Positions 13,982 through 22,183 of a DNA stretch of 41,279 nucleotides are shown here, in pieces (the stretch's first letter is position 1; every line of letters begins with the position of its first letter). Where the stretch lies: contig JAUJNQ010000001.1 in the NCBI GenBank assembly GCA_030448025.1, forward strand, positions 352,852 to 394,130. The letters run 5' to 3'. The translations under genes and the position numbers were made by a program. The notes below the pieces were generated by a model, which was not told the DNA's origin, made no database searches, and saw only the letters and a program-made list of their open reading frames with translations. This DNA comes from Acidimicrobiales bacterium. GTDB lineage: Bacteria > Actinomycetota > Acidimicrobiia > Acidimicrobiales > GCA-2861595.

Positions 13982-14188
13982 TTGTCCTTCGTGTGCACTC
14001 AGCGTCTCCCGGGAGGCGTCCCTCACGCTGACTGTGATCGGGTAAGCGAGGCGTCGCCACGTCGTCAAGAGGGAGTGGAGCGTGTTGCTCTAACCTGTCC
14101 GGCACGTCGGCCAAAGAGGGCGTTGTCGCGGGTGAGCAGGTTTCGAGACATGCCACCCGACGCACATAGTCCTTTGAGGACGTGCCGG

Positions 14189-14194
14189 TACACT
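14189..14194 (+). promoter_or_regulatory. Probable -10 box (TACACT) of the PAS-GAF kinase gene
   Basis: TACACT fits TANNNT and is 6 nt before GTG 14201, so the transcript is probably leaderless. The 220 bp between the channel gene and this box hold no gene; a 10-bp palindrome CTCCCGGGAG is at 14006-14015. Confidence 0.5.
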
Positions 14195-14200
14195 CGGCGT

Positions 14201-15784
14201 GTGACGGCGCCCGAGACCTTCAGCGTTGCCCGTGGGTCCATCGGGGAGCTGTTCTGGAAGATCACCGAGGCCGTGGTGGTCTGCGAGCCTGGCCGGGTGG
14301 TGGCCTGGAACCCGGGGGCCGAGGCCATGCTGGGGATGACCGCGCTCGAGGCGTCCAACCCGGACGCAGACCTGCATCCCGCCTTCGGGAACGCCACCAA
14401 GGAGTTCTGGGAGCTCGTCGAGGCGGGCACCGGCGTCGCCCGGCTGGAGACCACCGGGGGGAGCGAGCGCGTCCTCGAGGCGCGAGCGTGGCCTCTCGAC
14501 GGGGACGAGGCGTCGCTTATCCTCGTCGTGCTCCGTGACCTCACCGCCGAATGGCGTCACATGGCCGGTCTGCAGCGCCTCAACGTCCTTGCCAGGGAGC
14601 TCCTGGGCGAGAGCTCTCTGGACGTCCTCCTGGTCCGCATCGTTGACGCGGCCAAGGAGCTGGCCAGGGCCGACTTCAGTGCCCTGCTCCTCCTGAAGGA
14701 AGGGAGCAAGGACGAGGTCACCAACTTCGTCTACAACGCGCCACGGGAGCTGTTCCCCGAGCGCCTCCCGCGTGCCGTGGGCCTCCTTGCCGTGCCCATC
14801 CAGAGCGCGTCGGTGGCCCGCATCGACGACATCCGTGGCCATGTCGCCGGCGTGGGGATTCCGGTGGAGCATCCTCCCATCGCCGCCCTCCTGGCCGTAC
14901 CCATCCTCCTCGGTGAGCGGGTGGTGGGCGAGCTGGCCGTGGCCAACACGCCTGACCGGTTGGCCTTCGACGACATCGACGAGGCCCTGATGAGCGAGCT
15001 GGCCGCCCATGCCGCCATCACCTTGTCGTTGGTCACGGCACGGGAGGCCCAAGAGCACGTGCAGGAGACCAGGCGCGTCCTGATCGACGTCGCCATGCGC
15101 AACATCCGAACGCCGCTCACCGTGGCCCAGGAGTCGCTGGCCGCCGTCCGGGGCCAGGCCGAGGGGCTGAGCGAGGAAGAGCGCAACGGCCCCTTGGAGG
15201 CCGTGGAGCGGGCCCTTGAACGCATCGAGGCGCTCACCGAGGGCTCCCTGCTCGACGAGCACACCCCGGCGGGCGGAACCCCGGTCCAGGAGCTGGGCCC
15301 CATCGACGTGCACGAGCTGGTCGCCGAGCTCTGTGAAGAGTTCGGTGGCAGGCGGCCGGACGTGACGGTGGAGGTGTCGGTGAAGGACGGGTTCTCGGCG
15401 CCGTTCAGGTGCGACCGGCGCCTGGTGCGGGAGCTGCTCGACAGCCTCGTGAGCAACGCCGTCAAGCACTCACCGGCCGGCGAAGTGGTGACGGTCACGG
15501 TGCGATTGGAGGGGAGCTCCATCCGCTTCGACGTGAGCGACCGGGGCTCGGGCATCCCCCCCGACGAGCAGGGCCGCATCTTCGAGCAGTTCTACCGCAC
15601 GGCCCAGAGCGTGGCCGACGGGGTCCCGGGCACGGGCCTCGGCCTCTGGATCGCACGCAGGCTGGCCGACCTCCAGGACGCCACGGTGGGGGTGAGCAGC
15701 CGGACCGGTCAGGGCAGCACGTTCTGGGCCTCCTTCCCCTTGCAGCCGGTGGGGACGACTGCCGTCCCCCCGCCGCCGGCCTAG
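14201..15784 (+). CDS. PAS-GAF histidine kinase lacking the phosphoacceptor His
   Basis: A 527-aa soluble sensor kinase-like protein. It starts at GTG 14201, chosen because of the -10 box and the domain start; the frame is open upstream. A PAS domain (about 11-120) is followed by a GAF domain (about 135-285), then a dimerisation helix and a HATPase_c domain (about 365-515). The ATPase motifs are complete: N box DSLVSNAVKHSP, G1 DRGSGIPP, F box FEQFYR, G2 GTGLGL. The DHp helix reads VAMRNIRTPLTVAQ where active kinases have SHELRTPL: the His is Arg300 and the adjacent acidic residue is Asn301. Autophosphorylation at the usual site is therefore not possible. It may be a pseudokinase that signals by ATP binding or by heterodimerising. 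No response regulator gene is adjacent. Confidence 0.9.
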   Translation: MTAPETFSVARGSIGELFWKITEAVVVCEPGRVVAWNPGAEAMLGMTALEASNPDADLHPAFGNATKEFWELVEAGTGVARLETTGGSERVLEARAWPLDGDEASLILVVLRDLTAEWRHMAGLQRLNVLARELLGESSLDVLLVRIVDAAKELARADFSALLLLKEGSKDEVTNFVYNAPRELFPERLPRAVGLLAVPIQSASVARIDDIRGHVAGVGIPVEHPPIAALLAVPILLGERVVGELAVANTPDRLAFDDIDEALMSELAAHAAITLSLVTAREAQEHVQETRRVLIDVAMRNIRTPLTVAQESLAAVRGQAEGLSEEERNGPLEAVERALERIEALTEGSLLDEHTPAGGTPVQELGPIDVHELVAELCEEFGGRRPDVTVEVSVKDGFSAPFRCDRRLVRELLDSLVSNAVKHSPAGEVVTVTVRLEGSSIRFDVSDRGSGIPPDEQGRIFEQFYRTAQSVADGVPGTGLGLWIARRLADLQDATVGVSSRTGQGSTFWASFPLQPVGTTAVPPPPA

Positions 15785-15807: not shown

Positions 15808-16263
15808 TCAGCCCAGCGCGTCGAGGGCCTTGGCCACGGCGTCGGGCGGATCCTCGGCCCACAGGACGCCCTCGATGTCCCAGCTCCCGAGGGTCACCAC
15901 CGGGCGGTCCAGGCGGAGCGCCAGCGCGATCTCCGACAGTGTTCCGTAGCCGCCGCCAACAGCAACTACGGCGTCGGCCGTGCGCACGACCACGGCGTTG
16001 CGAGCCTCGCCCATCCCCGTCGCCACCGCCACGTCCACCCAGCGGTTGGCCTTGGTGCGATCTGCTCCGGGCAGGATGCCCACGGTGGCGCCCTCGACGG
16101 CCTTGGCGCCCCGACAGGCGGCGGCCATCACGCCACCCAGGCCGCCGCACACCACCACCGCCCCCCGCTCGGCCAGAAGCCGGCCCACGGCCTCGGCCTC
16201 GGCCTCGACGGCGGGGGACGCCTCGCCGGGGCCGACCACCCCCACGTGGATCGAACCTCTCAC
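15808..16263 (-). CDS. TIGR00725 / LOG-family nucleotide-binding protein
   Basis: A 151-aa Rossmann-like protein of the TIGR00725 group within the LOG / DprA-like superfamily. I chose GTG 16263, giving VRGSIHVGVVGPGEASP, the family's first strand and loop. Other motifs are LLAERGAVVVCGGLGGVMAAA (as VVVCGGLGGVMAAA), ATVGILPG and the LOG-type PGGYGT equivalent VAVGGGYGTLSEIALAL. LOG proteins are cytokinin-activating phosphoribohydrolases, whose PGGxGTxxE motif is partly kept here (GGGYGTLSE), so a nucleotide phosphoribohydrolase role is possible but unproven. It is divergent from the radical SAM gene across a 64-bp region that contains a LexA-type box, so both could be DNA-damage controlled. 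Confidence 0.85.
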   Translation of the reverse strand: MRGSIHVGVVGPGEASPAVEAEAEAVGRLLAERGAVVVCGGLGGVMAAACRGAKAVEGATVGILPGADRTKANRWVDVAVATGMGEARNAVVVRTADAVVAVGGGYGTLSEIALALRLDRPVVTLGSWDIEGVLWAEDPPDAVAKALDALG

Positions 16264-16299
16264 CGGTAGAGGTCTAGCGCGGCGCCGTCCGCTGGCGTA

Positions 16300-16315
16300 G
16301 CGAACACATGTTCGA
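16300..16315. promoter_or_regulatory. LexA (SOS) box
   Basis: CGAACACATGTTCG at 16301-16314 fits the mycobacterial/Gram-positive LexA operator CGAAC-N4-GTTCG; extended to 16 bases it lacks only the outer T on the left. It abuts the -10 box of the radical SAM gene and lies 37 bp upstream of the divergent LOG-family start. Confidence 0.75.
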
Positions 16316-16321
16316 TACAGT
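16316..16321 (+). promoter_or_regulatory. Probable -10 box (TACAGT) of the radical SAM gene
   Basis: TACAGT fits TANNNT and is followed by 6 nt and ATG 16328, so the transcript is likely leaderless. The LexA box ends at its first base, so repressor binding would block polymerase. Confidence 0.6.
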
Positions 16322-16327
16322 TCGGCG

Positions 16328-18241
16328 ATGGGAGAACTGAGGTGGCGCCTGGCCGGGGACGACGGCGGGCAGGGCTCGCTCTTCGCAGACGAGGAGCTGG
16401 TGGAGCGCCACGTCGGCGGTGGCGAATACAGGGGCCTCGAGTTCCTCCACGTCAACGCCCGCCGCATCATCAACGAGGTGCCCGCGGCCTCGCGGATGCC
16501 CTTCGGCTACACCATCAACGCCTACAGGGGATGCAGTCATGCCTGCACCTACTGCCTGTCCGGCGAGACCCCGATACTCATGGGCAGCGGGCGGACGAAG
16601 CCTCTGGCGGAGATCCAGATCGGCGACAAGGTGTACGGCACCGTAAGGGAGGGGAGCTACCGCCGCTACGTCAGCACCCAGGTTGTCGCCCACTGGTCCA
16701 CTCTCAAGCCCGCATATCGGGTGTCGCTGGAGGACGGGACCGAGCTCATCTCGAGCGGTGACCATCGCTTCTTGACAGAGCGCGGCTGGAAGCGCGTCAC
16801 GGGTGCCCAGAGCGGGGCAGCATGCCGGCCACACCTGACCCGCAACGACAAGCTGATGGGCGTTGGACAGCTGGCGGCTCCACCTGGGCACGGCCTGGAG
16901 TATCGGGACGGGTACTTGTGCGGGATCCAGCAGGCGGTCGATGCTCGGGAGTTGCGTGCCATTCGAACCTCGACCAGAGCGAGCGTTGCCGCCATCACGG
17001 CGATCGTCGACTACCCAACCTCGCCCTCCGACGAGTGGTGCAAGGGCTTTCTCGGGGGCATCTTCGACGCCGAGGGCTCGTACAGCCGTGGCATCTTGCG
17101 CATCGCCAACGCGAACCCCGCCATCATCGAGCAGATCTGCCTCTGCATGCGGCGGTTGAGATTCCCGTTCTCCGTCGATCGTGGTCGTGTCTCCTACGTC
17201 CGAGCGGTCGGGGGCCTGCGGGAGCATCTGCGCTTCTTTCAGACAGTGGACCCGGCGATCACCCCAAAGAGGGTCATCGATGGAGCCGCCGTCAAGAGCA
17301 GTGCTCGCTTGGGTGTGGTGGAGGTCGAGCCATTGAGGTTCGACCTTCCCATGTACGACCTGACCACGGGCACCGGTGACTTCATCGCCAATGGAGTGGT
17401 GAGCCACAACTGCTTTGCTCGGCCCACGCACGAGTACCTCGGTCTGGGCATCGGAGAGGACTTCGACCGCAAGCTGGTGGTGAAGGTCAACGCCGTGGAG
17501 CGGGTCCGGGCGGAGCTGGCGGCCCCACGGTGGGCGGGCGAGCACATCGCCATGGGCACGAACACCGACCCCTACCAGCGTTGCGAGGCCAAGTTCCACC
17601 TCACGCGGGGCATCGTGGGCGTGCTGGGCCAGGCCGCCAACCCGTTCTCGGTCCTCACCAAGTCCACCCTGATCCTTCGCGACCTCGACCTGCTGCAGGC
17701 GGCAGCGGAGCGTACCGAGGTGCGGGCCAACTTCTCGATCGGCACGCTCGACGAGGACGTCTGGAAGGCCACCGAGCCGGGCACTCCCCATCCCCGCCGG
17801 CGGGTGGAGGCCGTGGCCCGGCTCAACGAGGCCGGCATCCCCTGTGGTGTCCTCGTGGCGCCCGTGCTTCCCTGCATCTCCGATTCGCCCGAGCAGCTGG
17901 AGGCCGTGGTCAAGGCCTGCGTGGAGGCAGGGGCGGTGTCGGTCTCGGCACTCCCGCTGCACCTGCGTCCCGGCGTGAAGGAGCACTTCATGAGCTGGCT
18001 CCGGGCCAACCGCCCCGACCTGGTGGAGCAGTACGAGCGTCGCTACCGCAGGGCCTATCTGGCCTCCGAGGAGCAGAAGGCGCTGTCGGCCAGGGTCCGC
18101 CGGCTCGTGGACGAGTCGCGGGGCCGCTTCAGCCCACCGTCGGCCACCAGGCCCGTGGGTGGGCGGCAGCGCCGCCGGCCACCACGTTCGGGCCCCCCGC
18201 CGGCCGCCACCGTGCCGGGGCAGCTCGGCTTGAGAATGTGA
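16328..18241 (+). CDS. Rv2578c-family radical SAM protein containing an intein
   Basis: A 637-aa precursor; after removal of a 286-aa intein the enzyme is 351 aa. The host protein is the Rv2578c-type radical SAM family (SPL-like). Its 4Fe-4S motif is GCSHACTYC, with Cys 69, 73 and 76, and the third Cys is exactly the splice site. Downstream are FARPTHEYLGLGIGEDFDRK, a family signature, then AMGTNTDPYQRCEAK, LTKSTLILRDLDLL and APVLPCISDS. The enzyme cannot bind its cluster until splicing joins ACTY to CFARP. The ATG is 6 nt after a -10 box next to a LexA box, pointing to induction by DNA damage. The family has been linked to spore photoproduct lyase-like repair; the true substrate is unknown. 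The C-terminus is Arg/Pro-rich and ends PGQLGLRM. Confidence 0.93.
   Translation: MGELRWRLAGDDGGQGSLFADEELVERHVGGGEYRGLEFLHVNARRIINEVPAASRMPFGYTINAYRGCSHACTYCLSGETPILMGSGRTKPLAEIQIGDKVYGTVREGSYRRYVSTQVVAHWSTLKPAYRVSLEDGTELISSGDHRFLTERGWKRVTGAQSGAACRPHLTRNDKLMGVGQLAAPPGHGLEYRDGYLCGIQQAVDARELRAIRTSTRASVAAITAIVDYPTSPSDEWCKGFLGGIFDAEGSYSRGILRIANANPAIIEQICLCMRRLRFPFSVDRGRVSYVRAVGGLREHLRFFQTVDPAITPKRVIDGAAVKSSARLGVVEVEPLRFDLPMYDLTTGTGDFIANGVVSHNCFARPTHEYLGLGIGEDFDRKLVVKVNAVERVRAELAAPRWAGEHIAMGTNTDPYQRCEAKFHLTRGIVGVLGQAANPFSVLTKSTLILRDLDLLQAAAERTEVRANFSIGTLDEDVWKATEPGTPHPRRRVEAVARLNEAGIPCGVLVAPVLPCISDSPEQLEAVVKACVEAGAVSVSALPLHLRPGVKEHFMSWLRANRPDLVEQYERRYRRAYLASEEQKALSARVRRLVDESRGRFSPPSATRPVGGRQRRRPPRSGPPPAATVPGQLGLRM
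16553..17410 (+). other. Intein with LAGLIDADG endonuclease domain
   Basis: Codons for residues 76-361 of the precursor (286 aa). Block A: CLSGETPILMGSG with Cys1 nucleophile, continuing PLAEIQIGDKVYG. Block B: SSGDHRFLTERGWKRV with the conserved His. An endonuclease domain follows, with one clear LAGLIDADG-type helix, FLGGIFDAEGS (about residues 240-250). A second, weaker copy is not obvious, so the endonuclease may be dimeric or decayed. Blocks F/G: YDLTTGTGDFIANGVVSHN, ending in the penultimate His and terminal Asn, then +1 Cys. All splicing residues are present, so it should be splicing-competent. Its base composition is slightly less GC-rich than the flanking exteins. Confidence 0.93.
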
Positions 18242-20578: not shown

Positions 20579-22183
20579 TCAGGAGCTGCAAGACAGCATC
20601 GAGCAGCCCACCCGCTCACGGGCCCACTCGGGGCGACGGGCGGAGAACCGCTCCCTGCCCGGCTGCTCGGCGTAGGGATGGCGGAGCACGTCGAGCAGCT
20701 CGGCTACGAGCGATGGGTCGCCGTCCTCGGCGGCGTCGATGGCTTCCTGGGCGAGGTAGTTGCGCAGGACGAAGCGGGGGTTCACGGCGTCCATCCTCCG
20801 GCGCCGATTGTCGTCGGCCAGGCCTCCCTCAGCCGCCCGGCGGCCCCAAGACCGGAGCCAACCCACCACCGCCTCGCGGACCTCGCCCACCACCTCCTCG
20901 GGCTTGTACCAGGCGCCGGCCAGAGGAGCGAGCAGGGCCCCGGCGGGGAGATCGCCGTCGGTATCGACGGGGACTCGAGCCAGGTCGCGGAAGAACAGCA
21001 CCTGGTCGGTCTCCGTGCGCCCGAGCATGACGAAAAGCTCGCTCAGCAGGCGGTCGTCCTCTTGGAGGGGTGATCCCCAACCGAGCCGCTCCGCCATCAT
21101 GGCCTCGAAGCCGCGGTGGTAGCTGGCCACGTAGCTCTCGAGGCCGGCCTGGAGCGGCTCTGGGTCCTCGGTGAGCACCAGCAAGGAGTTGGCGAGCTGG
21201 ACCAGGTTCCAGTGCGCCACCTCCGGTTGGGCCCCGAAGCGGTAGCGGCGGGTGCCGGCGTCGGTGGTGTTGGGCGTCCAGCCGGGGTCGAAGCTCTCGA
21301 GCCAGCCGTAAGGGCCGTAGTCGATGGTCATCCCGAGGATCGACATGTTGTCGCTGTTGAGCACACCATGCACGAACCCGACCCGCATCCAGTCCACGAC
21401 CAACGCCGCGGTGCGGGTACAGATCTCGTCGAACCAGGACCCCACCGCCTCACCGAGGACCGGGAAGCCGTCAGCCGCGAGGTGGGCGAAGTCGGTGCGG
21501 ATCGTGAACCTGACGAGCTGTTCGAGCACGTCCCGCTCTCCGCGCCACGCCGGCAGCTGGAAGTTCCCGAACCGGGTGAACGACGGGGCTACCCGGCACA
21601 CCACGGCACCCGGCTCGGGGCGGGCGTTGCCGTCGTAGAGCACGTCGCGGACCACGGTCTGGCCAGTAGTCACGAGGGAGAGCGCTCGGGTGGTGGCCAC
21701 ACCCAGGTGGTGCATGGCCTCGCTGCACAGGAACTCCCGGATGGAGGATCGCAGCACGGCCCGGCCATCCGCCATGCGGGAGTAGGGCGTGGGGCCGGCC
21801 CCTTTGAGCTGCAGGATCTGGTGCTCGCGGTTACGGTCGAGCACCTCTCCGAGGGCGATGGCTCGCCCGTCTCCCAACTGGCCGGCCCAGCCGCCGAACT
21901 GGTGCCCGCCGTAGTTGGCGGCGAAGGGATCTGCGCCCGCGGGCACCCGGTTGCCGCCGAACACCTGGGCGAAGTCCTCCGACCGGCACACCTCCGGGGC
22001 GAGGCCCAACAGGTCGGCCACCTCCGGTGACCAGGCCAACGTCTTGGGGGCTGACACCGGTGTAGGGACAACCCGGCTGAAGCAGGCCCGGTGCACCTGG
22101 CGACGCCGGTTGGAGCGGTCGGGATCAGCCGGGAGCTCGGCGGTGAAGCGGTTGTCGAAGAGGAGCCTGTCGAGCTCGGTCAC
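20579..22183 (-). CDS. selO: SelO (YdiU/UPF0061) protein adenylyltransferase
   Basis: A 534-aa member of the SelO family, pseudokinases that bind ATP in flipped orientation and transfer AMP to Ser/Thr/Tyr of proteins, with a role in oxidative stress. Landmarks: NYGGHQFGGWAGQLGDGRAI (about 89-108), QLKGAGPTPYSRMADGRAVL, the catalytic-loop and metal region VHGVLNSDNMSILGMTIDYG (about 271-290) with the N and D that bind Mg, and NPRFVLRNYLAQEAI. The C-terminus ends SMLSCSS; the Cys three from the end is the position of selenocysteine in animal SelO and of the redox Cys in E. coli YdiU. It starts at GTG 22183, 5 bp after the preceding gene stop, so it is probably co-transcribed with it. Confidence 0.95.
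   Translation of the reverse strand: MTELDRLLFDNRFTAELPADPDRSNRRRQVHRACFSRVVPTPVSAPKTLAWSPEVADLLGLAPEVCRSEDFAQVFGGNRVPAGADPFAANYGGHQFGGWAGQLGDGRAIALGEVLDRNREHQILQLKGAGPTPYSRMADGRAVLRSSIREFLCSEAMHHLGVATTRALSLVTTGQTVVRDVLYDGNARPEPGAVVCRVAPSFTRFGNFQLPAWRGERDVLEQLVRFTIRTDFAHLAADGFPVLGEAVGSWFDEICTRTAALVVDWMRVGFVHGVLNSDNMSILGMTIDYGPYGWLESFDPGWTPNTTDAGTRRYRFGAQPEVAHWNLVQLANSLLVLTEDPEPLQAGLESYVASYHRGFEAMMAERLGWGSPLQEDDRLLSELFVMLGRTETDQVLFFRDLARVPVDTDGDLPAGALLAPLAGAWYKPEEVVGEVREAVVGWLRSWGRRAAEGGLADDNRRRRMDAVNPRFVLRNYLAQEAIDAAEDGDPSLVAELLDVLRHPYAEQPGRERFSARRPEWARERVGCSMLSCSS

Follow-up and report, generated by a model that had tools for sequence, protein, structure and literature searches.

We consider it probable that the intein encoded in the window (the whole 41,279-nucleotide stretch of DNA analysed here) is a class 1 intein from a known Actinomycetota lineage with a single homing site, namely, the third cluster Cys of a LexA-controlled, Rv2578c-like radical SAM gene, and that it is a passenger, perhaps incidentally redox-sensitive. 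The case for a lineage that homed into this site stems from the exact insertion site in 49 loci, retention of the catalytic residues, size classes pointing to endonuclease decay, and discord between the intein and extein trees. The arrangement itself is already known, as the named NCBIfam family NF038136; in the literature available to us, a search for Rv2578c with an intein found none. New, as far as we checked, are the site-wide survey with its size classes, the decay stage of the window copy, the LexA box over most of the family, and the congeneric pairs with which the idea of a splicing switch can be tested.

The precursor open reading frame (16328..18241, + strand; 637 aa plus stop) encodes a radical SAM protein with an in-frame intein. 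This intein-bearing gene is present in a single copy in the window genome, which consists of 13 contigs, and the window intein is known from this one assembly only. The N-extein (16328..16552, +; residues 1-75) includes the cluster ligands Cys69 (16532-16534) and Cys73 (16544-16546), the latter being Cys-3 with respect to the intein. The C-extein (17411..18238, +; residues 362-637) begins with Cys362, the +1 nucleophile, followed by FARPTHEYLGL; after splicing, Cys362 would complete the CX3CX2C cluster motif as its third Cys. The top NCBIfam match of the 637-aa protein is NF038136, "intein-containing Rv2578c family radical SAM protein" (678.3 bits, E=1e-203, residues 18-596), with which it shares the host family and the insertion position: in the model, the N-extein stops near position 76 and the joined C-extein begins at position 335, which places the intein at the third cluster Cys. 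The window copy differs in that its endonuclease is partly deleted and its score misses the curated cut-off of 700 bits, as does that of the congener with a full endonuclease (687 bits). For the joined exteins, the best family is NF038135, the intein-free Rv2578c model, with a full-length match of 397.8 bits, and an intein-free relative scores 388.5 bits; because both are under the NF038135 cut-off of 430 bits, we refer to the host as Rv2578c-like. An Rv2578c-like host, as in the initial sequence-only reading, is supported. Among solved radical SAM folds, spore photoproduct lyase is closest to the window extein, although the similarity is weak (26 bits against a cut-off of 400).

The intein itself (16553..17410, +; residues 76-361) lies exactly where the sequence-only reading had placed it, down to the residue numbers. 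It shows the class 1 layout (Cys1 ... His-Asn), with Cys1 (Cys76; 16553..16555, +) at the third cluster-Cys position of the precursor; the block B motif SGDH with the catalytic His146 (residues 143-146; 16754..16765, +); and blocks F and G, which run from Asp344 to TTGTGDFIANGVVSHN and include His360 and Asn361 (17357..17410, +; TIGR01443 match of 18.2 bits, above the cut-off of 15.6). The AlphaFold model of the intein core is confident and adopts the Hint fold, and Foldseek matches it to inteins, among them PI-PfuI, Ssp DnaB and 3nzm, a DnaE redox-trap structure. Cys1, His146, Asp344, His360, Asn361 and Cys+1 are kept in 49/49 inteins, the window copy included. Inactivation of blocks A, F and G in homologues, the outcome that would have spoken against a functional intein, was thus seen in none of the 49, and because all catalytic residues are retained, all these inteins are probably splicing-competent.

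These comparisons come from a tblastn survey of the family, order, class and phylum of the window (1,096 genomes), in which the matches broke repeatedly at the same residues. We read 93 distinct loci, 44 without and 49 with an insert (window included), a ratio that is not a frequency estimate because loci were chosen by match score and intein-bearing ones were added deliberately. Besides the window intein, 48 inteins reside at exactly this site in Actinomycetota. The insert, 137-355 aa long, always falls between the third cluster Cys and the residue preceding it, whereas CX3CX2(C)F is uninterrupted in the 44 intein-free relatives; with 44 relatives reading straight through and 49 carrying an insert between the same two residues, insertion exactly at the third cluster Cys, as proposed originally, is not a chance reading. 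The inteins fall into three size classes: those of 341-355 aa contain both LAGLIDADG motifs (under a strict pattern, motif 1 in 29/30), the four of 286-312 aa, including the window copy, only motif 2, and the 15 of 137-165 aa neither motif. Judged from these sequences, the size classes show repeated endonuclease decay. A distant intein-bearing clade (L084-L088, L092 and L093) comprises seven genes that share one family code, several of which have CYAR instead of CFAR.

The window copy captures one stage of this decay. Alignment of its DNA with that of the congener, whose intein (locus L002) is 341 aa long, has a mean column identity of 84% and reveals an in-frame loss of 162+3 nt (about 55 codons), without a stop, that starts inside LAGLIDADG motif 1. 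Of this motif, kept by the congener, only a stump (GYLCGI; 16910..16927, +) is left, whereas motif 2 (GFLGGIFDAEG; 17045..17077, +) is kept, with a match to Pfam LAGLIDADG_3 (E=0.013) that is below the cut-off of that family. An active LAGLIDADG endonuclease has two motifs with the catalytic Asp; given the missing motif, the nuclease function of the 286-aa intein is probably lost. For the window-congener pair, to which the dN/dS estimates pertain, the ratio is 0.087 in the extein, indicative of strong purifying selection, 0.228 in the splicing part and 0.261 in the endonuclease remnant, with similar synonymous divergence along the whole gene. Since the remnant is still constrained, the loss may be recent. 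In terms of its sequence, then, the window copy combines an intact splicing domain with the wreck of a homing endonuclease.

The distribution of the intein is patchy. When presence is mapped on the extein tree, 19 changes are required, at least 10 of which are forced by strongly supported branches, compared with a mean of 31 for shuffled presence; therefore, presence is clustered, yet the intein has been gained or lost many times. Path lengths in the intein and extein trees are uncorrelated across 49 inteins (Mantel r -0.02, or 0.09 without the far clade), a discord that is partly noise, given that the intein tree is built from 138 columns and few of its branches are strongly supported. Close relatives differ as well. 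Loci L065 and L067 have exteins that are 93.0% and inteins that are 87.1% identical; for L069 and L071, the exteins are 91.6% but the inteins 58.0% identical, as would be expected had each received a different intein. In one genus, L014 carries a 155-aa intein that is missing from L025 and L029, with exteins 94% and 90% identical. Cultured bacteria differ in the same way: a 295-aa intein is present in Actinoallomurus iriomotensis but absent from A. spadix and A. soli. The patchy distribution together with the tree discord better fits a mobile element than an adapted switch.

The strongest competing explanation, which we nevertheless regard as unlikely, is that of an evolved redox or metal switch. 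Under oxidising conditions, Cys76 would be trapped in a disulfide with Cys73 or by a metal bound to CX3CX2C, so that the enzyme would be delayed until the cell is reducing and able to build the cluster; the intein would have been kept for this reason. MoaA is a radical SAM enzyme, and because it hosts a redox-trap intein, the switch idea has a direct precedent. In the Pyrococcus abyssi (P. abyssi) MoaA intein, a native Cys-3/Cys1 disulfide blocks splicing under oxidation, and addition of a Cys-3 to Ssp DnaE produced an engineered redox trap (reviews PMC3922620, PMC10663303). The MoaA intein resembles that of the window in its radical SAM host and in the position of Cys1 three residues past an N-extein Cys, a spacing from which we infer that its site, too, is the third cluster Cys; it differs in that its host is archaeal and synthesises the molybdenum cofactor. 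Mycobacterial SufB and DnaB inteins likewise occupy functional sites, and their splicing responds to oxidants and zinc: in mycobacteria, both H2O2 and zinc inhibit DnaB inteins, and zinc bound to the nucleophilic Cys stops one mycobacterial DnaB intein (PMC7360933). In DnaBi1, the +1 Ser doubles as a residue of the active site once the enzyme is mature, comparable to Cys362 of the window protein, although these inteins have other hosts and DnaBi1 is a class 3 intein with the disulfide partner within the intein.

Cys73 and Cys76 form a CXXC that is found in 49/49 precursors, in agreement with such a switch, but Cys-3 is fixed in 44/44 intein-free alleles as well, a degree of conservation for which the cluster accounts. 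A second invariant intein Cys that could serve as the disulfide partner was sought across the inteins and none was found, so this candidate was rejected; the best, Cys198 (28/35), sits inside LAGLIDADG motif 1. The claim that the 4Fe-4S cluster cannot form before splicing is not established either, because Cys1 of the intein completes an unbroken CX3CX2C in the precursor. A contrast between AlphaFold models of the precursor and of an intein-free homologue was dropped as proof of cluster-loop disruption, the loop being of low confidence in both (residues 68-73 and 69-78, respectively). That the CX3CX2C of the precursor binds iron or a cluster, or that a Cys73-Cys76 disulfide forms, and that splicing is thereby gated by iron or redox state, appears improbable to us; if true, such gating would be a second check on an SOS-induced enzyme. 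The proposed redox response of splicing thus retains its precedent, in the Cys-3/Cys1 spacing identical to that of the P. abyssi MoaA trap, but we see no sign of selection for a switch, with Cys-3 fixed without the intein, no other invariant Cys, patchy presence and common endonuclease decay. We rate the passenger above the switch for the first two of these reasons and because relatives, including sister species, live without the intein.

LexA control of the host gene, also part of the sequence-only reading, is well supported. A predicted LexA/SOS box, GAACACATGTTC (16302..16313, +), lies 14 nt upstream of the ATG and overlaps the putative promoter, with a likely -10 element, TACAGT (16316..16321, +), 2 nt past the box and 6 nt ahead of the ATG, at the TANNNT position of the relatives. 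The GAACN4GTTC box is found upstream in 77/90 loci, compared with about 0.4 expected from shuffles. A -10-like TANNNT element follows a few bases after the box in 70/79 loci; since it is usually located 6-8 nt upstream of the start codon, it suggests a leaderless mRNA with a promoter that LexA would cover. In the window genome, CGAACN4GTTCG occurs at 19 sites versus one for the reversed pattern, and the box also lies upstream of recA-, lexA- and ruvC-like open reading frames (identities read by eye from the translations). In Streptomyces venezuelae (S. venezuelae), ChIP identified the radical SAM gene vnz_31145 as a LexA target, and mitomycin C raises its expression 20-fold (PMC9380542); it resembles the window gene in combining a radical SAM protein with a LexA link, which does not imply orthology. 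That most of the family has the box in front of the gene supports a role in DNA damage for this uncharacterised enzyme. Seven of the box-less loci are the distant clade noted above, which possibly uses a different LexA motif or lacks SOS control.

Given that the host gene appears to be SOS-controlled, the intein might provide DNA-damage-specific post-translational control layered over LexA, but this is very unlikely. Among the genes with enough upstream sequence, GAAC-N4-GTTC is as common without the intein (42 of 44, 0.11 expected) as with it (35 of 46, 0.25 expected), we see no damage sensor in the intein, and the site is also occupied by mini-inteins of about 150 aa. Because intein-free relatives carry it too, the predicted box is a trait of the host gene and its family; specificity of the box to intein alleles was rejected, the box being present in both classes. 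Hardly any more credible is a splicing-dead insertion that would make the precursor a broken gene, a reading to which the Ser in place of Thr in the block B TxxH motif and the partly deleted endonuclease might point, but Ser at this position is normal for the lineage (45/49 inteins), no catalytic residue is missing, and strong purifying selection acts on the extein.

The passenger reading accommodates these features in the following sequence of events. DNA damage would lift LexA from the box over the promoter, and the gene would be expressed as one 637-aa precursor with all splicing residues in place. Cys76 would attack, the chain would move to Cys362, and Asn361 would cyclise, whereupon the joined enzyme would regain ACTY-CFARP and be able to take up the 4Fe-4S cluster. 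Without the first LAGLIDADG motif, the window copy would no longer be able to home; it may persist because imprecise removal would leave a broken enzyme. If splicing is redox-sensitive at all, whether through a Cys73-Cys76 disulfide or metal on the precursor CX3CX2C, this would be a side effect of where the intein inserted and not a switch that evolved. Congeneric alleles that share the LexA promoter but differ in carrying the intein offer a clean natural system in which to test if inteins at metal-ligand cysteines control their hosts or are passengers and no more.

Several other genes in the window and its genome were noted. Divergent from the intein gene is a SLOG cluster 4/LOG-like protein (15808-16473, - strand; PF18306, E=1.5e-44), the true start of which is probably further downstream because the listed frame runs past the SOS box. 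A sensor histidine kinase with PAS and GAF domains (13982-15784, +), the listed start of which may be over-extended, and a SelO protein adenylyltransferase (20579-22183, -; PF02696, E=1.9e-115) are also encoded in the window. Elsewhere in the genome, three more SOS boxes (L124, L131 and L136) lie 13-14 nt ahead of similar paralogous open reading frames that share "...VCGALNATT.RLVSLI..." and apparently represent a multi-copy SOS-linked family.
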